39,483 bases of DNA. Origin: a virus. The stretch spans positions 1-39,483 of the IMG/VR virus record IMGVR_UViG_3300042922_000500, one strand, 5' to 3'. The stretch's first letter is position 1, and the number at the start of each line of letters is the position of its first letter. The notes under the pieces are model-generated. The model did not search any database, was not told where the DNA came from, and worked only from the letters and a program-made list of their open reading frames with translations. Positions 28,061 to 38,069 of the stretch are shown one piece after another. The position numbers were made by a program, and so were the translations under genes.

Positions 28061-29284
28061 TTAATTTAATATTATTTTAAAACTTGCTTTTCTACAAACA
28101 TCTTCTTCATATACGTCAAATTTTGCACTGGCTTTTGCTCCGCCAAAATAATTATCGTCACAATATTCATCACTACCCATGATTGAAGGTATATAAATTA
28201 CTTCACAATCATTATTTTTAGCCTCATTTGTTGTAATTGTCATTTCATGATGGATGTGTCCAAAATAAGCAATATCATAAAATTTTCTATGTTGTTGACT
28301 AGCATCAGCTATCACATTTTTAGGATTTTTAACCTTTTGTCCATGTTGTGCATAAATATTATAATTAAATATCTTAAAATCTAAATATTTACCATTGTAT
28401 TCTGGAACTGTAATTCTAGGATTATTTTCTAATACATCATGAATATAACTAATAATTATTCTTTCCATGTTCTCATATGTAAATGTTTTATCATTAAAAG
28501 CTCTAATTTCTGAATGATTACCTGATAATACATGATGATATGTAATAGTAATATGCTCACTTAACTTATTTAAAAATTTAGCCATAAATCTTGCTAATTT
28601 AATTACTTGGTCTGTCATACCATGTTGTAAACTAGCTAATTGAGATATTCTCAATGTCATACCTTCAATATCATCACCGCAATTTAAAACATGTAAATGA
28701 GATATATTCTGTTCTTTACATAACTCGATTGTTTCAGATATTAATTTATTCATTCTTTCAATAAATATATCTTCTGAATATTTATTATTTATAGAAGTAA
28801 ATAATTTTCCAAAATGTATATCTGAGATTCCTAATAGACCTATTTTTCCTTTTTTATCTTTATCAATAAATATCGGTTTAAAATCAGGTACTTCAATTGT
28901 TTTTATGGATTTTTTCATTTCATCAAAGAATAATTCTAGTCTAGCATCTTGTCTCATCCATTTATTGTATTCTGTTTTTAAAGATGATAATTTTATTTTT
29001 TCCTTTTGAATTTCAATCTTTTTTATTTCTAATTCATCTAAGATTTCTTCATCAGTAATGTTATTATTTAGTTTTTCTTTAAGATACTTATAAATATCAT
29101 AACCACCAAATTTACCTTGAACTGATTTTCTTAAAGTATCTCTATGTACTTGTAAATTAAGTGATTCAATCATGTCTTCCCACTCTAAATCATCAGGCTT
29201 TTCAGACATTTTTATTTCTATTAATCTTAATCCATATTCATACTCTGATTCATCTTCCCTTCGTAAATATCTTTTATTATCCAC
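28061..29284 (-). CDS. Calcineurin-like metallophosphoesterase
   Basis: GTG at 29284, 8 nt after GGGGGAA, is preferred to ATG 29299, which has no ribosome binding site and itself contains the GGGGG. The C-terminal ~260 residues hold the full metallophosphoesterase set: SDIHFG, NCGDDIEG, LSGNHSE, AQHGQ and FGHIHH. The N-terminal ~140 residues are helical with a coiled coil (IQKEKIKLSSLKTEYNKWMR) and a possible DNA-binding helix pair. Relatives in Gram-positive phages are called SbcD-like nucleases or phosphoesterases; the substrate is not evident. Confidence 0.85.
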   Translation of the reverse strand: MDNKRYLRREDESEYEYGLRLIEIKMSEKPDDLEWEDMIESLNLQVHRDTLRKSVQGKFGGYDIYKYLKEKLNNNITDEEILDELEIKKIEIQKEKIKLSSLKTEYNKWMRQDARLELFFDEMKKSIKTIEVPDFKPIFIDKDKKGKIGLLGISDIHFGKLFTSINNKYSEDIFIERMNKLISETIELCKEQNISHLHVLNCGDDIEGMTLRISQLASLQHGMTDQVIKLARFMAKFLNKLSEHITITYHHVLSGNHSEIRAFNDKTFTYENMERIIISYIHDVLENNPRITVPEYNGKYLDFKIFNYNIYAQHGQKVKNPKNVIADASQQHRKFYDIAYFGHIHHEMTITTNEAKNNDCEVIYIPSIMGSDEYCDDNYFGGAKASAKFDVYEEDVCRKASFKIILN

Positions 29285-29337
29285 GATAGTTTCCCCCATT
29301 TAATTAATTTCTTATAATTTTAATATTATATTTTTAC

Positions 29338-29609: not shown

Positions 29610-30467
29610 TTAACTTACTTTAATTATTTCTTCTTTATCCATTCTTAATTCACTATATTTGTTGTTACAAATATTTTCAACTATTTTAGACCTTTCTTCA
29701 AAATCCACTCCTGCAATAATTAAACCTGTAATCATTGATTGTAAATAATCAATTGCCTTGTTTTGCTCTATAATTAGATGTTCTCTTGTTTGTTCATCAA
29801 GATATCCTAACTTACTCTTTATTTCAGAAGCCGTATATCCTATTAATTCCTTATTTATCATATTGCTTTCTCTAATTCTTAAATATTTCTTATCAAATCC
29901 AGTTACATTAGAATGTTTATTTGCATAATTTTTAATTAATTCTTCAACCATTTTATTATAGTTTTCTTTTTCAGGTTCTCTTACATTTGTATGCTCTGAT
30001 AATCCTTTAATCGCTTTTTCTATTAGTATAAAATATTTTCTTGCCAATTTACTATTTGCTTTTAATTTATCGTTAGTTCTTCCACCTTTTGTACCTGATA
30101 TCATAGCAATTTCTTTAGCAATATCTACTGTTATAAAATATTCTTTTTTATAACCCATACCTGTTAAGTCTGTAACCCTAGTGTTATCAAGGTCGCCTTC
30201 AAAGATTACCCCTTTATCATTAATCCAATTAACAATATAATCACTATTTTCCATAGCGTCAACAATTTCTAAATTGTTTTTAATCCAGTTGGAAAAATCT
30301 TTGCCAACTTCTAATTCTTTATATATAGTTCTAGCATTTACACAACAACCTTGCCCATCATTAGTTAATATTGATGGAAATTTCTTTTGTGCCTCCATTG
30401 TTAATTTAATTTCATCTTCGTTAAATTGTAATACTTCTTGTAAAAATTCTTTTTTAAATTTCTTCAT
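29610..30467 (-). CDS. AntA/AntB-type phage antirepressor
   Basis: Residues ~40-155 match the AntA/AntB antirepressor domain: VNARTIYKELEVGKDFSNWI, then KKEYFITVDIAKEIAMISGT and KLARKYFILIEKAI. Such proteins inactivate lysogeny repressors by binding. The C-terminal ~110 residues are a separate helical region (NVTGFDKKYLRIRESNMINK, LDEQTREHLIIEQNKAIDYL). The ATG is 10 nt after AGGAGG, but that site is paired in a long upstream RNA structure (30478-30582), so translation is likely to be controlled. Second antirepressor in the window. Confidence 0.8.
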   Translation of the reverse strand: MKKFKKEFLQEVLQFNEDEIKLTMEAQKKFPSILTNDGQGCCVNARTIYKELEVGKDFSNWIKNNLEIVDAMENSDYIVNWINDKGVIFEGDLDNTRVTDLTGMGYKKEYFITVDIAKEIAMISGTKGGRTNDKLKANSKLARKYFILIEKAIKGLSEHTNVREPEKENYNKMVEELIKNYANKHSNVTGFDKKYLRIRESNMINKELIGYTASEIKSKLGYLDEQTREHLIIEQNKAIDYLQSMITGLIIAGVDFEERSKIVENICNNKYSELRMDKEEIIKVS

Positions 30468-30477
30468 TACTATCTTG

Positions 30478-30582
30478 CCTCCTACAGCATAAAATTTAGT
30501 AACTTAAATAAAGCTACTTTAAAGGGAAGACTAATTGACGTTCTAATCTTCCCCTGTTACTAAATCACTGTAGGAGGTGATT
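30478..30582 (-). promoter_or_regulatory. RNA structure sequestering the antirepressor ribosome binding site
   Basis: Three nested stems: CCTCCTACAG/CTGTAGGAGG (30568-30577 with 30478-30487, containing the Shine-Dalgarno), TTTAGTAAC/GTTACTAAA (30556-30564 with 30495-30503), and GGGAAGATTAG against TTAGTCTTCCC (30543-30553 with 30524-30534, two G-U). The anti-Shine-Dalgarno can alternatively sit in the loop of a local hairpin AATCAC/GTGATT (30563-30582). Two exclusive states are thus drawn in the sequence; the trigger is unknown. Confidence 0.75.
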
Positions 30583-30621
30583 AGAATAGATATAATCTAC
30601 TCTTTAAAATAGCTTTTATAT

Positions 30622-30633
30622 ATTTAATTTATT
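30622..30633 (-). promoter_or_regulatory. Phage motif copy 18, heading the antirepressor leader
   Basis: 155 nt before ATG 30467; a transcript started here would carry the complete ribosome-binding-site switch. Confidence 0.55.
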
Positions 30634-30650
30634 TTTTATAAATTTTATAA

Positions 30651-30695
30651 GAGATTGACGGATGCATAAGTATTTTATATCATACATCTCATCTC
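30651..30695 (-). promoter_or_regulatory. Hairpin upstream of motif copy 18
   Basis: GAGAT/ATCTC and GATGTAT/ATGCATC (one G-U) stack around a small internal loop. It lies between motif copies 18 and 19. Confidence 0.5.
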
Positions 30696-30750
30696 AAGGT
30701 TAATTCCGTTCAATTTAATAATTACCATCATCAGTAATACATTGAGTAAT

Positions 30751-30762
30751 ATTTAATTTATT
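30751..30762 (-). promoter_or_regulatory. Phage motif copy 19
   Basis: Just after the tRNA terminator region, 284 nt before the antirepressor start. Confidence 0.5.
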
Positions 30763-30766
30763 ATTA

Positions 30767-30820
30767 ATATATTCTCATTTAAAAAGACTAAATTTAATTA
30801 ATCTTCTTAGTCAAAATATA
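30767..30820 (-). repeat. Element TTTTGA-hairpin-AATGAGAAT, copy A
   Basis: TTTTGACTAA, a stem that doubles as the tRNA terminator, then AATGAGAATA. Flanks match copies at 26134-26187 and 25600-25677. Confidence 0.55.
30781..30812 (-). terminator. Rho-independent terminator after the tRNA
   Basis: GACTAA/TTAGTC stem (30807-30812 with 30786-30791) followed by TTTTT, 16 nt past the tRNA 3' end. Confidence 0.6.
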
Positions 30821-30827
30821 TTTTGTT

Positions 30828-30902
30828 TGGTGCTAGATTGAGGTTACGATCCCCACTCTATAGATTACAAAGCTATTGTTTTACCAAATAAACTAATCCA
30901 GC
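30828..30902 (-). tRNA. tRNA-Thr (anticodon UGU), CCA encoded
   Basis: 75 nt including CCA. Acceptor GCTGGAT/ATCTAGC (one G-U), D arm GTTT/AAAC with GG in the loop, anticodon stem ATAGC/TCTAT with a C-U mismatch at the loop end, loop TTTGTAA giving anticodon UGU, 4-nt variable loop, and T stem TGGGG/CCTCA with one G-U. The T loop is ATCGTAA: positions 54 and 58 are A and U instead of T and A, an exchange of the normally fixed pair. It reads ACA, the common Thr codon of this A/T-rich phage. Probably processed from a transcript that starts upstream of the structured RNA region. Confidence 0.85.
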
Positions 30903-31400
30903 ATATTAAAGAGTTTTAATGCGTGTACTTTGCATTAAGGAAAAACTCACAAACCCTCTTGACTGACACAGTTAGCATAATAGTATAAATTATCGTAAAT
31001 AATATCATAGGCTCTGTCCGGAAAGTGGCTTTTATTGGATTAATCACTCAGAACCTTTTAACGATGTCTACTTTCACTTATCATCAATTTTCTCTGTAAA
31101 AGCTAGAATGATTCTTTTCGTACGGTTCAAAACTCAATACTAAAGTATATTTCTAGTGTATTCATTTGATTTTTCCCAGTTTTCTCTGTAATGGGTATGA
31201 GTTTTAGGTCTTCATCCCGACTTACGTAATATTAGAAAATAATCCCTCCATTACACCGCACTTCCTATGAGTGGTTGGGTTAGAATAATTCTCATATAAA
31301 GAGTCATCACAACTCATTCAACACTTTGTAAAAAGGATTCCTCCTTAATTCTTTCATGTTCATCTGAACCCTAATTTCGTTAAAATGATTGTTTTATATT
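30903..31400 (-). ncRNA. Large structured non-coding RNA candidate adjoining the tRNA (ROOL/GOLLD-like?)
   Basis: About 500 nt without a credible gene, about one third G+C by my count, richer than its surroundings. Many paired arms are visible: TTAATGC/GCATTAA with GAGTT/AACTC near the 3' end (30911-30949); GTAA, GGG and ATGA opposite TTAC, CCC and TCAT (31188-31225); TATGAG/CTCATA (31267-31296); AAGGA/TCCTT (31333-31347). TTACAGAGAAAA occurs twice (about 31088-31099 and 31180-31191). A motif copy stands just upstream and a tRNA just downstream. Very large phage RNAs of the GOLLD and ROOL classes are known to lie beside tRNA genes; membership is a guess from position, size and structure. Confidence 0.55.
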
Positions 31401-31403
31401 ATT

Positions 31404-31415
31404 GTTTAATTTATT
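31404..31415 (-). promoter_or_regulatory. Phage motif copy 20, heading the structured RNA and tRNA
   Basis: AATAAATTAAAC, containing the stop of the 39-codon gene, directly upstream of the non-coding region. Confidence 0.55.
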
Positions 31416-31530
31416 TTTTACATGCAAGTATTGAATTAATCTTATCTATGAATTCATTCATTAGACAAAATACATACAATACTTGTGGTGTTAAATTTTC
31501 ATCTGTAATATCTAATTTTTTAATTCTCAT
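31411..31530 (-). CDS. Hypothetical protein, 39 aa
   Basis: ATG 31530, 9 nt after the stop of the 65-codon gene, encodes MRIKKLDITDENLTPQVLYV and then a helix FCLMNEFIDKINSILACKK. The ribosome binding site is weak (TAGGT). It is probably co-translated with the gene before it. Unrecognised. Confidence 0.5.
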   Translation of the reverse strand: MRIKKLDITDENLTPQVLYVFCLMNEFIDKINSILACKK

Positions 31531-31539
31531 AATATTTAC

Positions 31540-31737
31540 CTATTCTTCTATAGGTTTTAAATCAGAATCTTTATTCACTGATAATGATATACCTTCTACA
31601 TCAACCAATCCATCTAATATGTCAGATAAATCATATGATATACTATCATCTTTGGTAACCTCTGTAATTATGTATTTATCTCCGTCCTTAGTTATAGTTG
31701 CCTTTGTAAAACTAGTTTTAAATGAATTCTTTGCCAT
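31540..31737 (-). CDS. Hypothetical protein, 65 aa
   Basis: ATG after AGGGGGAA. A small beta-strand protein (KATITKDGDKYIITEVTKDD, DGLVDVEGISLSVNKDSDL) with acidic end. It resembles no family I know with certainty. It starts the short unit that leads into the structured RNA. Confidence 0.5.
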   Translation of the reverse strand: MAKNSFKTSFTKATITKDGDKYIITEVTKDDSISYDLSDILDGLVDVEGISLSVNKDSDLKPIEE

Positions 31738-31765
31738 TTAAAATTCCCCCTAAAATTTTATTAAT

Positions 31766-31777
31766 ATTTAATTTATT
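31766..31777 (-). promoter_or_regulatory. Phage motif copy 21
   Basis: Just after the ribonuclease stop, 29 nt before ATG 31737. Confidence 0.55.
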
Positions 31778-31778
31778 T

Positions 31779-33233
31779 TTATAAAATTATTTCCATATTT
31801 TTTGTACTACCAATTATTTTCGTTGATTTACCTATTTTATTTAATTCTTCTCTTGCATCCTCAATTAATTCTTTTTTCGCTTCTTTTGAAGAATGGTGAA
31901 TTATTATCTTATCCGTATTTACCATCTTAATATAATTAATTAATTCAGAATGTTGTGCATGACTACTATAAGTTTTATAGGACTTTCTTAAACAAGATTT
32001 ATTATATGTACTTATTCCTATTTTTACCGTTTTAGTTAATGGATTAAGAATACGTCCACCAACACTAGAATCTGGACAATACCCTACGAATAGGATTGCG
32101 TCTTTATTATTAGGTAAAAATGATTTTGCATATAACTGGCTTCTTCCTGCATCTAAGAATCCTTGACTACTTAAAATTACGCAAGGTTCATCTTTAGCAA
32201 GAATTAATTTTGTACCTTTAATATCTTTATTCATTTTAACATTACTCCAAGAAGTAGCGTTCTTTAATAATTCTTTATCTTCCCCTTTAAGAATCTTATG
32301 ATAGCAAGATGTTATATCTACACTTAATTTTGAATCAATAATTACTGGAGTATATCCGAATTCTTTATCATCTTTAAACATATTATATAAATCAACTAAT
32401 ACCTCTTGTGTTCTTGAAAATGAAAACGTTGGTAATAATACTTTACCGCCATTCATAATTACTTCTTTTATAGTTTTTTTTATATCATATCTTTCTTCTT
32501 TTACATCTTTTGTAGTATAACTACGACTGTTTAATCCATAAGTCCCCTCCTGAATGTGCAGGTTACTTTTAGTTGCATATTCCATTTCTGTTACAAAAGG
32601 TTTATCTTTTCTGATATTACTTCCAATATCAGATGTATATACTATTTTCACTACTTTATTACTTGGTTTTCTTATAAATAATTCTAATTGTGATGCTCCC
32701 AAACAATGTGAATTTTTAATAAGCCTAAAAGATATGTTTTCATTAATCTCATAAGTTTCATCTAAATCACATGCTTCCATATATTCATATGTTTTATAGA
32801 CATCTATATCTCTGTATAAAGGGTCTATTTTACATTTCTTTTCTTTACTTAATATTTCTGATTCTTTCAATAAGATATGTGCTGAATCTAACAACAATAA
32901 TCTTCCAATTTCTTTTGTTTCATATGTACAATATATTTTTCCATGAAAATCTTTCTTTTTTATAATCCCTGGTAAATTTGATATGTGATCACAATGTGTG
33001 TGTAATAACCATACACATTCAAGATTACTAACATTAATTTCATTTATTAATTGTGAGTTTAATGTATATGATTTATCTAATCCATAACCTTGAGCACTTC
33101 CACATTCAATCAAATATGTTTTTCCTAAAAATGTTATCCTTAAACAACTCTGAGTAACATCAACTGCTGAATTACCTAAAAATTCTACTTTTACATCTTC
33201 ATTGTTTTTCTTCTTACTTCCCACATATACCAT
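31779..33233 (-). CDS. Beta-CASP metallo-beta-lactamase ribonuclease
   Basis: 484 residues with the metallo-beta-lactamase motifs HTHCDH (78-83), His176 in SHCLGA and Asp202 in YTSDIG, followed by beta-CASP features: Glu229 in IQEGTYG, the SSQGFLDAGRSQLYAK segment and His425 in YSSHAQHSEL, with His446/447 near the end. This is the architecture of RNA-processing nucleases of the CPSF73 / bacterial RNase type. In a phage it could mature or degrade transcripts, including those starting at the recurrent intergenic motif. The annotated ATG lies very close to its AAAGGA; GTG at 33224 is an alternative start. Confidence 0.85.
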   Translation of the reverse strand: MVYVGSKKKNNEDVKVEFLGNSAVDVTQSCLRITFLGKTYLIECGSAQGYGLDKSYTLNSQLINEINVSNLECVWLLHTHCDHISNLPGIIKKKDFHGKIYCTYETKEIGRLLLLDSAHILLKESEILSKEKKCKIDPLYRDIDVYKTYEYMEACDLDETYEINENISFRLIKNSHCLGASQLELFIRKPSNKVVKIVYTSDIGSNIRKDKPFVTEMEYATKSNLHIQEGTYGLNSRSYTTKDVKEERYDIKKTIKEVIMNGGKVLLPTFSFSRTQEVLVDLYNMFKDDKEFGYTPVIIDSKLSVDITSCYHKILKGEDKELLKNATSWSNVKMNKDIKGTKLILAKDEPCVILSSQGFLDAGRSQLYAKSFLPNNKDAILFVGYCPDSSVGGRILNPLTKTVKIGISTYNKSCLRKSYKTYSSHAQHSELINYIKMVNTDKIIIHHSSKEAKKELIEDAREELNKIGKSTKIIGSTKNMEIIL

Positions 33234-34503: not shown

Positions 34504-35295
34504 TTAAAGGCATTTTCTATTTTCTCGCCTTTTCTTTTCTTTGTATTTTTTATCAGCAATCCTATCTTGCTTTGATTTGATTTCCTTAGCACATTCTTTA
34601 CAATTCTTAACTTTATTATTAGTTATCTTAATTGGTTTACCACAATTTTCACAATACCCTATATCATCTCCTTTCCATTTCAGATACTCTAATACAAAAT
34701 CTCTAAAGTCATTTATGGTTATTCTAATATCTGAATTCTCATCAAGATACATAACCTTAAAACTTATCTTATCTACTTTTTTAGAATATTCTATATATTC
34801 TAATTCTTTTAATTTATTGATTAATAGTTTTCTTTCTTTCCCAGTATCTTTTAATAATGTATCAGGAAATATTACATTAGTACTTTTATTTACCCAATTA
34901 TTATTTTTTTCATTAATTTTATTTAATACTTTAGCATATACTAACAACACAAAAGCTATTTTTTCTAATTTTAAATTATCCAACTCCTTTATTTTATTTA
35001 ATTCATTGATTGTAATATTTACATTATCAATATCAATTAATTTACTATTATTATCGTTTTTAGTATATGTTCTTATCATTCTATCTAAAGTATTTTGCCA
35101 GTTAGAAGAATTAAACTCATCATAATTCTTCTTCATAAAATCTTCTATTTGGCTTCTTATTTGTTCTTTTATCATACCTTTACTATGATAATATTTAATT
35201 AATAGTCTTATTGTATTTGTTGGTTTTTTATTATCTATATATCCTGTATCAATTGATTTTAATGCTATTTCCGTCTCATTTAATATTATATTCAT
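34504..35295 (-). CDS. Zinc-ribbon protein coupled to the phage RNA polymerase
   Basis: The ATG overlaps the polymerase stop (TAATG), so the two are made together. The 263-residue product has an N-terminal helical region like replication or initiator modules (NTIRLLIKYYHSKGMIKEQI, NWQNTLDRMIRTYTKN), a possible winged-helix segment near 150-185 (RKLLINKLKELEYIEYSKKV), and a C-terminal ribbon with CENCGK and CKEC followed by a basic tail. A specificity or accessory factor for the polymerase is an attractive inference; there is no family match to prove it. Confidence 0.6.
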   Translation of the reverse strand: MNIILNETEIALKSIDTGYIDNKKPTNTIRLLIKYYHSKGMIKEQIRSQIEDFMKKNYDEFNSSNWQNTLDRMIRTYTKNDNNSKLIDIDNVNITINELNKIKELDNLKLEKIAFVLLVYAKVLNKINEKNNNWVNKSTNVIFPDTLLKDTGKERKLLINKLKELEYIEYSKKVDKISFKVMYLDENSDIRITINDFRDFVLEYLKWKGDDIGYCENCGKPIKITNNKVKNCKECAKEIKSKQDRIADKKYKEKKRRENRKCL

Positions 35296-38069
35296 TAATT
35301 ATTTTCCTCGCTTTCAACTATTTTCTCTCTCATAGAAAATTTATATCCACCAAAATTAATATCTCCACTTCCATCTAAAACAGGATAATTTATTTTATAA
35401 TTATTTCTTTTTAATAAATTTGTAACTATTACATCTCCAACTATATCCCAAACAAATTGTTTAGATGAATTATTTTTGTAACATAAATCAATTACAATAT
35501 TACTCAATTCATATTTGTTATTACATATTTCATACGCCTTTGTTATAAACTCTTCTTTAAACATATTTCTTTTTGATTTTTTATCGTCTTTATCAATTCT
35601 TTGAGTCTTTGAAATTTGTGCATAGTCATTTATTTCTTTATTATATTGTTTATATAAATCTTTTATCTTATTAAAGTCCTTTTGAGAATATTCTAAATAA
35701 TCTTTACTTTTTAAAATAGTATAATCAAAATCTTCATAATATATTTTATTTAAAAACCCATCAAATTCACCTTCTATTCTCCAACATATTTTATTCAAAA
35801 CGCAAGGATTCATTCCAACAGGCATCATTATATTATAATATTTCAAAAATTCTATTTCTTTCTCCGTCTTATCTTCTTTTTGTTCAAGTTCATTCACATT
35901 CATGCAAAATTCCAATAAACATTTTTCATTCGTATTTCTTATGTACCTTTTATATTTGTTCATTTCATTAGGATATATGTAATTAAAAAAATAAGGTTTT
36001 TTATTAGCTAATATTCTTAAATTAAATTCTTTTTCTTTTTTTACTTCTTCAGTATCATTTGCGTTTATTTTATTTACCTTATAATCATACCATTCTTTAG
36101 GCATAGGATTTGACATGATTCCTTTTGCCTTATCTATGGCACATTGTTGATAATGTTGTCCACATCTTATTCTATACATTAATTCATCATGTTCTACGCT
36201 AATTTTTTCAACACCAGCTAACACCTCAAACATACCAGTAATCCTATTAGTTGTTGAGCCTATATCATCTCCGAAACCGTCCTTGTTAGACTTTATTAAA
36301 TGTTTTTCTTCCACTATAACTTTTTGTGCTGATTTTTGCATACATACTAATGCATCTAATTTTTTAGTGTTTCTTAATAAAACTGGATTATTAGTTTCAA
36401 TTATAGCATCAGCATCTTCATCCATTCCATTCATAGCATGAGTTGTAGTATCCCAACCATTAATAACTGTACAAGTTGTCATGTATTTAAACCAATAATT
36501 AGCACAATTTTTATTTACAAAATGCATAGGTTTTATATTGTTAGCACAAGTCATTGGTGCTCTGAAAGCTACAATATCATTAACCCCTCTATCAAGCCAT
36601 GTTCTTGAATAATATTCATTCGCTTTTAATAAACCAGTTATTTTCAAACCAAACATTGATTGACATAAAGCATATACATCTCCTGCTACTATAGAGTAAT
36701 CTCCTCTAACTTTTATAACTCCGATTTTTGAATCATTAATTCTTTTTTCTATCGCATTATGTATTCTTTGTTTTACAAAAGGGTCTTTCATCATTTCAGG
36801 CTCTACTAATAAAGCTTTTATAAAATCCAAGTCATTTTTACTATCAAAGGCATTTTTATCCGTCATATGTACACCTTTTAAAAACAATAATGCTTTTCTA
36901 TAATCTCCTTCTAGAACGTCATGAATTTCATCTACAGTAGGTTTTATTAATTCGTCTATATCTTCATCTGAAAAATCATAACTCTGTAAGAATTGATAGT
37001 TCATATTTCTTTCATTCTCTAATTCTTTAGGACAATACTTAGTTACTCCAAAGGTATATCCATTTTCTTCACAACAAGATAAATAATGTTCTACGCTATT
37101 ATAACAGTTCCAGAGCTTTAACATATTTGTAGTTAATACAATTTCGACATTTCTAACATCTACATCATTACCCCATACGTCTTTTACAATATAATTTTTA
37201 GCAATTTTTTCAGCAAAATCAATAAAATCAAATGTAAAAACCATACCTTTGCACCATGATTGTCTTATACAAAATCCACTTATATATTCATCTTCTTTTA
37301 ACTCTTCTCCTAATTCTTTAGCCCAACGTTTCGACAAAGAAGGAAGTAACATGGCACACCCATCACAAAAATCTAAATCAATAGGATAATCTTCAATCCT
37401 TTCCATATTTGGTCGTTCACCATTACTATCATCAATTTTTATTACATTAGCTTTAAAATGAGTTGTACCATCTTTTATTACCAATACACCTTTAGGCTTA
37501 CTAACTGGAATACTACTACTACAAGTAAGTGATTTATATGCTTCTAATTTGGCAGGAACTAATGGAATTTCTTTATTTCTACCATTATCCACTCTTTTAT
37601 TTAATTCATCAAATACTTCTTCATTTACATATACAATTGTTTCCTTTTTTATACCTCCTGTTGTACCAACCATTCTTTTGTATTTTATACCATTAATAAA
37701 AAATCCCTTCTTGCGATTACACTTATCAAAATCAGTATTTTTATCCATTATTATACACACATAATCTTGTGTATATAATAAATTATCTTTTTTATTCTGT
37801 AATTCTTTTATTTTTTTTCTATTTTCTATGGATGATGTTTCTTTTTTTATTCTATCTATTTCTTTTTTTATATGTAATATTTCATTTTCATCAATTTCGT
37901 AATCTTTTATATTTCTTATAAATCTTAACATTTCAGAGTCCGCCAATGATATAATATCTTTATTTTTTTTGGCTTCTTCAAATGGTATATTTAAACTCCA
38001 TTTGCTTCTTCTTAAAATTGATGAATGAATTTTTAATATGTGCTTTTGGCTAGATTGTTGTTTTGTCAA
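35295..38069 (-). CDS. Single-subunit two-barrel (YonO-type) DNA-dependent RNA polymerase
   Basis: The 924-residue protein carries MNGMDEDADAIIE, with DEDAD at 550-554 matching the DxDxD metal-binding signature of double-psi-beta-barrel polymerases (usually DxDGD; here Gly is Ala). Upstream are VAFRAPMTCANNIKPMHFV and NYWFKYMTTCTVINGWD, downstream KKLDALVCMQKSAQKVIVEE and GFGDDIGSTTNRITGM, as in the active-site neighbourhood of this superfamily. SPbeta YonO, a single-chain phage polymerase for late genes, has about the same length. The start is TTG, about 9 nt after AAGGAGG. The N-terminal ~100 residues are a Lys-rich coiled coil. Confidence 0.8.
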   Translation of the reverse strand: MTKQQSSQKHILKIHSSILRRSKWSLNIPFEEAKKNKDIISLADSEMLRFIRNIKDYEIDENEILHIKKEIDRIKKETSSIENRKKIKELQNKKDNLLYTQDYVCIIMDKNTDFDKCNRKKGFFINGIKYKRMVGTTGGIKKETIVYVNEEVFDELNKRVDNGRNKEIPLVPAKLEAYKSLTCSSSIPVSKPKGVLVIKDGTTHFKANVIKIDDSNGERPNMERIEDYPIDLDFCDGCAMLLPSLSKRWAKELGEELKEDEYISGFCIRQSWCKGMVFTFDFIDFAEKIAKNYIVKDVWGNDVDVRNVEIVLTTNMLKLWNCYNSVEHYLSCCEENGYTFGVTKYCPKELENERNMNYQFLQSYDFSDEDIDELIKPTVDEIHDVLEGDYRKALLFLKGVHMTDKNAFDSKNDLDFIKALLVEPEMMKDPFVKQRIHNAIEKRINDSKIGVIKVRGDYSIVAGDVYALCQSMFGLKITGLLKANEYYSRTWLDRGVNDIVAFRAPMTCANNIKPMHFVNKNCANYWFKYMTTCTVINGWDTTTHAMNGMDEDADAIIETNNPVLLRNTKKLDALVCMQKSAQKVIVEEKHLIKSNKDGFGDDIGSTTNRITGMFEVLAGVEKISVEHDELMYRIRCGQHYQQCAIDKAKGIMSNPMPKEWYDYKVNKINANDTEEVKKEKEFNLRILANKKPYFFNYIYPNEMNKYKRYIRNTNEKCLLEFCMNVNELEQKEDKTEKEIEFLKYYNIMMPVGMNPCVLNKICWRIEGEFDGFLNKIYYEDFDYTILKSKDYLEYSQKDFNKIKDLYKQYNKEINDYAQISKTQRIDKDDKKSKRNMFKEEFITKAYEICNNKYELSNIVIDLCYKNNSSKQFVWDIVGDVIVTNLLKRNNYKINYPVLDGSGDINFGGYKFSMREKIVESEENN

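Follow-up and report, generated by a model that had tools for sequence, protein, structure and literature searches.

Phages P1 and P7 encode C4, an RNA that acts on the synthesis of the antirepressor (PMC8546580; PMC8198154) and that is cut from a longer transcript (PMC5320573). Its loop b' partly covers the ribosome-binding site, and its segment a' pairs upstream and sets specificity (PMC5320573). The C4 family (RF01695) is listed for Proteobacteria and phages in a table of PMC2864571. In the Rfam consensus, read through its match in locus L009, a closing stem of 17 bp is followed by two hairpins of 5 bp each, the second with a 12-nt loop, and by a single-stranded junction. In phage P22, the antisense RNA sar is described as blocking translation of the ant mRNA (PMC12197685).

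Here, we describe an RNA element that precedes an antirepressor gene in an SPbeta-like phage and that looks more like a C4-type antisense RNA than like a riboswitch. The window analysed is an entire virus record of 39,483 bases, which may be a fragment. From modelled folds and their conservation, we consider it probable that positions 30616-30510 of the minus strand are a C4-type antisense RNA that would repress translation of AntA.

Results

Genomic setting of the antirepressor gene

The proposed target of control is a gene for a protein of 285 amino acids (29610..30467, minus strand). Its matches to PF08346 (E 2.5e-16) and to the PHROG anti-repressor Ant (E 2.7e-21) agree with the initial annotation, which had named it an AntA/AntB antirepressor. 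Judged from its genes, the window phage is SPbeta-like and related to Bacillus phage SPbeta. It carries a YonO-like RNA polymerase (35295-38069) that resembles proteins of Bacillus and Enterocloster phages, and a YonJ-like exonuclease (28061-29299) downstream of AntA. AntA is located upstream of this exonuclease and downstream of a gene at the YonK position, whose match to YonK is sub-threshold (E 0.00046, below the Pfam cut-off). A tRNA-Thr (TGT; 30828..30902, minus strand), found by ARAGORN and by Rfam RF00005 (48.1 bits), lies upstream on the same strand and is a possible processing point of a common transcript. The element is flanked by this tRNA and AntA, and the gene with the YonK match lies upstream of it. 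AntA is missing at this place in other SPbeta-like relatives; in the SPbeta-like locus L051, the exonuclease comes almost immediately after the tRNA-Thr.

Upstream of the element, the phage encodes a beta-CASP/RMMBL protein of the ribonuclease type (31779-33233, minus strand), and distant homologues are found in L024 and L195, where they are flanked by YonO and the exonuclease. Towards the opposite end of the window record, there are a second antirepressor-type protein with a KilAC domain (PF03374; 2960-3940, minus strand) and a helix-turn-helix (HTH) protein (PF01381; 1811-2596, minus strand). About 480 nt between the YonK-position gene and the tRNA (30905-31380, minus strand) have no obvious gene. 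The initial annotation had suggested a neighbouring structured RNA as one signal that might free the ribosome-binding site, and this suggestion found no support, the region folding like its shuffles (z = 0.06). Compared with six related records, it gave short, weak matches (best E 0.0034), and a 17-base segment of it, TGAGTTRTGATGACTCT, is common to the matching gap of L195 (E 0.008). SPbeta likewise has a gap of 1.7 kb before yonK, near which an unannotated RNA has been reported (PMC5467207).

The Shine-Dalgarno sequence of AntA is buried

On the minus strand, the region before AntA forms three nested stems, interrupted by a 4-nt bulge and a 5-bp side hairpin. The outer stem (11 bp; 30577-30567 with 30488-30478) contains the AGGAGG of AntA, and it is followed by a middle stem (11 bp; 30566-30556 with 30503-30493) and an inner stem (13 bp; 30555-30543 with 30534-30522). 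These are the stems that the initial annotation had placed here with 10, 9 and 11 bp, and they are slightly longer than it gave. Two segments of the leader serve as targets of the pairing. Target 1, GCUGUAGGAGG (30478..30488, minus strand), holds the Shine-Dalgarno AGGAGG and forms 11 bp with 30577-30567 (9-11 bp in 3/3 members). Target 2, GUUACUAAAUU (30493..30503, minus strand), lies directly upstream of the Shine-Dalgarno sequence and forms 11 bp with 30566-30556, with compensated variation among the three members.

The minimum free energy (MFE) of 30440-30640 on the minus strand was -59.1 kcal/mol against -29.5 +/- 3.7 kcal/mol in shuffles (z = -8.0), and 0 of 200 shuffles were as good. 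The pairing is real and far beyond chance. The cost of opening the AntA AGGAGG, 12.9 kcal/mol, was the highest of 45 window genes; the other 44 had a mean of 2.3, a standard deviation of 1.8 and a maximum of 6.27 kcal/mol in this comparison, which was drawn from the list of open reading frames with the overlapping plus-strand frames left out. Fold and opening cost both bear out the burial of the ribosome-binding site that had been proposed.

An inverted repeat may also act as DNA, as an operator, a recombination site or the end of a mobile element, with no role for RNA. The sequence is indeed palindromic and folds on the plus strand too; however, the fold of the coding strand is far better (z of -8.0 against -4.6 for the weaker plus-strand fold), and G-U pairs and a direction-specific layout are found directly before the AntA Shine-Dalgarno sequence in three phages. 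We regard a DNA repeat as very improbable and prefer an antisense RNA.

A closed four-way domain precedes the target

The proposed antisense domain (30510..30616, minus strand; 107 nt) folds in isolation into a four-way cloverleaf and has homologues in two other phage loci, L056 and L091. Folded alone, 30506-30625 gave -39.1 kcal/mol (z -7.6), and the MFE structure was identical to the centroid. The 13-bp closing stem joins a 5' strand, AAAGCUAUUUUAA (30604..30616), to a 3' strand, UUAAAGUAGCUUU (30510..30522), all positions in this description being on the minus strand. Within it, hairpin A (30583..30603) has 9 bp and a 3-nt loop. Hairpin B (30563..30582) has 6 bp (30582-30577/30568-30563), and its 8-nt loop is antisite 1, the anti-Shine-Dalgarno segment CUCCUACA (30576-30569). 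The junction strand UAGUAAC that follows, UAGUAACA (30556..30562), is antisite 2 and is complementary to 30503-30497. Hairpin C (30523..30554) has 12 bp. Loop and junction are the two segments complementary to the Shine-Dalgarno sequence and to the bases just upstream of it. When the window domain is folded alone, each antisite is 0.99 unpaired; the mean for the domain as a whole is 0.28. A single transcript would carry the antisense domain that exposes the two antisites and then the target.

The initial annotation had described an alternative fold in which the anti-site lies in the loop of a 6-bp hairpin. That hairpin is present, as one arm of the larger cloverleaf. The OFF/ON design that was read from it stands in so far as an alternative fold exists; the ON form is, however, not an equilibrium partner, because in the window the target-paired form is 9.2 kcal/mol more stable than the unpaired one (4.5 and 4.3 kcal/mol in the two relatives). 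It is instead predicted to come first during transcription. In the window, the closed form is complete at a transcript length of 111, and the paired form becomes the MFE structure only at 140, when the Shine-Dalgarno sequence has emerged. In all three phages, the closed domain is complete before the target, and the predicted MFE structure changes to the paired form only when the Shine-Dalgarno sequence emerges.

Two mutually exclusive folds are also what a ligand riboswitch or a thermosensor controlling AntA would have. However, no Rfam riboswitch model matched, in line with the initial annotation, which had recognised no riboswitch family; the antisites apart, there is no conserved unpaired pocket; and the sequence outside the antisites changes with the pairing kept. 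Such a sensor is hardly to be expected here, and an antisense domain describes the element better.

The weight of the case is carried by the whole fold and its conservation, not by antisite 1. Taken singly, antisite 1 is unremarkable, since a 10-nt perfect complement occurs in 4.4% of shuffles, and in a similar single-antisite test 4 of 43 other window genes gave a smaller value than AntA. A gapped duplex test of the upstream DNA against the gene start gave z -2.8 for the window, with 4 of 300 shuffles as good.

The element is kept in two other phages

Two independent phages, L056 and L091, have the element before AntA and a yonJ-like exonuclease downstream. Their AntA proteins are 55% and 38% identical to that of the window, respectively. 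At the DNA level, 30460-31540 had no relatives in phage records, and most of the 21 AntA loci in viral contigs align over the AntA domain only.

L056 comes from genome G110, of the same family as Clostridium tagluense, and is also present in an identical 146-kb IMG/VR record. Its element lies downstream of a 70-aa gene at the YonK position, which has no Pfam match, and its closing stem begins 28 nt downstream of a tRNA-Trp; the exonuclease follows downstream and yonO is in the same record. This phage counts once because L071 (100% identical over 3,774 bases) and L092 (the same contig) are the same phage. In L091, in a 116-kb record, AntA is preceded by homologues of yonO, p263 and beta-CASP and followed by the exonuclease, and no tRNA was found within the 10 kb examined. 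A second AntA-type gene (L068) lies on the same G110 contig, about 13 kb from the first, and its surroundings gave no match to the covariance model of the element.

The L056 element scored 107.9 bits in cmsearch, but L056 is a row of the model; an independent blastn comparison gave E 6.7e-11. L091, which is outside the model, was picked up by a search pattern combining antisite 1 with target 1; the covariance model of the other two then matched it as well (31.2 bits, E 3.5e-5 over 745,768 bases). Because the search pattern required target-1 complementarity, the target-1 pairing in L091 is partly due to selection; no such selection applies there to target 2, the closing stem or hairpins A and C. 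The covariance model (R1) was built on an imperfect MAFFT alignment. When 206 genomes of the family were searched with the model, one was found, G110, holding L056, and in a class-wide search by pattern 3 of 391 genomes gave a match, which in two of them included one mismatch.

In the window, L056 and L091, respectively, the closing stem has 13, 14 and 13/14 pairs, hairpin A 9, 6 and 6, hairpin C 12, 11 and 13, target 1 11, 10 and 9, and target 2 11, 7 and 10. The initial annotation had tied its proposal to preservation of the pairing in related phages, and both the stems and the target pairing are kept with compensatory changes across the three. Between the window and L091, the closing stem and hairpin C have diverged widely in sequence and kept their pairing. 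In target 2, 3/9 positions, in a column reading by eye, are changed on both sides: U-A to A-U, A-U to U-A or U-G, and C-G to U-A (where L056 is unpaired). The compensatory changes come from hand-set segments checked by script and not from an alignment count, because MAFFT aligned hairpin B of the window and of L056 incorrectly.

What counts against the reading as a C4-type domain is that the isolated domains of L056 and L091 have a rod, not a cloverleaf, as their MFE structure, and the L056 cloverleaf is a suboptimal fold only. Exposure of the antisites in these isolated domains is 0.42 and 0.89 in L056 and 0.43 and 0.56 in L091. Hairpin B has 5 bp in L056; its form is not kept in L091, where the antisite is not in its loop.

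The closing stem and hairpin A have no role in the buried-site pairing, yet both are kept in all three phages, with a sequence of their own in L091. This bears on a further explanation, namely that the duplex hides the site until a cut by a double-strand nuclease frees it. Phage lambda N has an RNase III-type processing switch of this sort, and the duplex described here is long and nearly continuous. A conserved closed alternative fold would be superfluous in such a switch, which we hold to be improbable.

A purely cis-acting fold-back has to be weighed as well. Readthrough transcripts, e.g. those of a YonO late operon starting near yonK, would bury the AntA Shine-Dalgarno sequence, and AntA would be made from shorter transcripts without the 5' arm. 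Fold-back hairpins over the ribosome-binding sites of phage T4 gene e and the IS10 transposase act against readthrough in this way, and there too an upstream arm of the same transcript buries the Shine-Dalgarno sequence; they are not known to have a separately closed antisense domain. A cis-only element would account for the pairing too, and the target-paired form is the more stable in all three members. Moreover, opening the Shine-Dalgarno sequence costs 12-15 kcal/mol and only 1-3.5 kcal/mol when the 5' end of the transcript is at 30570 or further downstream. The position is also in keeping with it: YonO starts the SPbeta late operon upstream of yonK, as described in PMC5467207, and AntA lies downstream of the YonK-position gene. 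However, a fold-back leaves the conserved closing stem and hairpin A unexplained, it does not account for both antisites being exposed when the window domain is folded alone, and no promoter was detected inside the loop. We consider it unlikely, albeit with some claim to attention, and retain the antisense domain as the preferred reading.

Comparison with known RNA families

Like C4, the window element precedes an antirepressor gene in the same orientation, and so do the elements of L056 and L091. The order of parts in the window is also that of C4: closing stem, small hairpin, hairpin with antisense loop, and single-stranded junction. One antisite faces the ribosome-binding region and the other the bases just upstream, with 9-11 and 7-11 pairs in 3/3 members. 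The window element differs from C4 in its extra 12-bp hairpin C, which is absent from the Rfam C4 consensus, and in its length (107 nt versus 77). It targets AntA directly, whereas in P1 icd lies between c4 and ant (PMC8198154), and it belongs to SPbeta-like phages with relatives in Clostridium, in contrast to the Proteobacteria listed for C4 (PMC2864571). RF01695 gave no match at its gathering score of 45, at E<=5 (30400-31500) or at E<=10 (30470-30640). The closing stem does not start with the RNase P signal GGW described in PMC5320573; its 5' end reads AAAGC in the window and L056 and AUAAA in L091. The element is not filed as RF01695 because it has neither a model match nor the GG processing signal. 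Its mode of action is most likely that of C4. The relation between the two may be either distant descent or convergence.

The likeness to sar of P22 is that of an antisense RNA against an antirepressor mRNA, its action being predicted in our case. P22 sar comes from inside the ant region, on the opposite strand, whereas the domain described here shares the strand of AntA and lies upstream of it.

At gathering scores, only tRNA matched among the known RNA families in the window, and relaxed E-values added weak matches to snoRNA, microRNA and IRES families of eukaryotes, which fell short of the gathering scores of those families and were rejected. In another AntA locus, L016, an sRNA-Xcc1 (RF02221; 3810-3900, 57 bits) is located directly upstream of the AntA gene, as is the window element. 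It contains 7- and 10-nt segments complementary to the AntA leader; in the perfect-complement test, its 7 nt were matched in 38.6% of shuffles and are not beyond shuffles. Some sRNA-Xcc1 copies may be antirepressor control RNAs. No sRNA-Xcc1 match was found in the window, including the relaxed Rfam search of the locus.

Survey of AntA loci

A descriptor of the form 'closing stem + antisense loop + second antisite' was too loose in A/T-rich DNA and, for this reason, was not used as evidence of a general design. The window scored 26.8, a value that 0 of 1000 shuffles reached (maximum 22.6), but the 43 other window genes included two with scores of 24.6 and 23.2. Among 33 AntA loci, scores of at least 20.6 were obtained only for the window, L058, L056, L008 and L016, with the wrong loop used in L056. 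L058 has a long closing stem upstream of AntA, and no antisite was found there by eye.

The longest perfect complement to the gene start was also examined in 34 AntA loci, a set without L003 and L006 (near copies), L014 (lost at the start-codon step) and L072-L075. There were three clear cases (L010, L015 and L017; 0/500 shuffles as good), which are antisense to the start codon region and unlike the window's element in form. In the same test, 4.4% of shuffles were as good for the window, 3.2% for L056 and 9.2% for L091. In L010, L015 and L017, a segment of 16-17 nt at about -55 to -30 is a perfect antisense of the region around the AntA start codon. A hairpin located further upstream (within 160 nt) carries a near copy of that start region (10-14 identical bases). 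From its sequence, this hairpin looks like a decoy for an antisense RNA. In L002, a Type II hammerhead ribozyme (1222-1309; 55.9 bits) lies about 2.6 kb upstream of the AntA gene.

Discussion

If the element is an antisense RNA of the C4 type, its action can be pictured as follows. During transcription, the domain would fold first into the closed cloverleaf and present two antisense segments, the anti-Shine-Dalgarno loop and the junction strand that pairs just upstream. Once the AntA leader emerges in cis, both segments would pair with it and translation of the antirepressor would be blocked. Alternatively, the leader might be on another mRNA, e.g. that of an incoming related phage, and the same block would be exerted in trans. 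AntA would be released by a shortage of antisense RNA relative to its target mRNA, as in fresh infection, and antirepression would then shift the phage towards lysis. The computed cost of opening the Shine-Dalgarno sequence with and without the domain is 13.1 versus 3.0 kcal/mol in the window, 6.8 versus 1.3 kcal/mol in L056 and 8.2 versus 4.2 kcal/mol in L091.

In 30400-31800, 8 promoters were found against 10.3 expected, with no excess over shuffles, and there were 0 terminators and no U tract after the blocking hairpin. Neither a promoter excess nor a terminator marks the ends of the domain, which counts against the reading, and its release from the transcript as a separate RNA is an inference. 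In L056, the tRNA and the closing stem are only 28 nt apart, too close for a promoter to fit between them, so the domain probably arises by cutting of a longer transcript that includes the tRNA.

A wider role may be put forward tentatively. In a clade of SPbeta-like phages of Clostridium and its relatives, a four-way C4-type RNA, derived from a longer transcript (tRNA-containing in 2/3) at the head of the YonO late operon, might be an immunity determinant that silences incoming antirepressors in trans. If this is true, phages would fall into immunity groups according to their variable antisite 2, as P1 and P7 do by a', and RNA heteroimmunity would reach Gram-positive phages via a separate or very diverged RNA family. 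In the open-licence literature searched, no description was found of such an element in SPbeta-like or clostridial phages.

In conclusion, we found a closed RNA domain with two antisites to the leader of AntA, kept before the same gene in three phages. According to the review PMC8270828, control of lysogeny in SPbeta is unresolved, and neither proposed repressor gene seems essential. An antisense-controlled antirepressor near the head of the late operon would be a concrete, testable switch for this phage group, and it would extend the c4 principle beyond Proteobacteria. The two-site rule, a near-invariant anti-Shine-Dalgarno site together with a variable site, would predict immunity groups from sequence.
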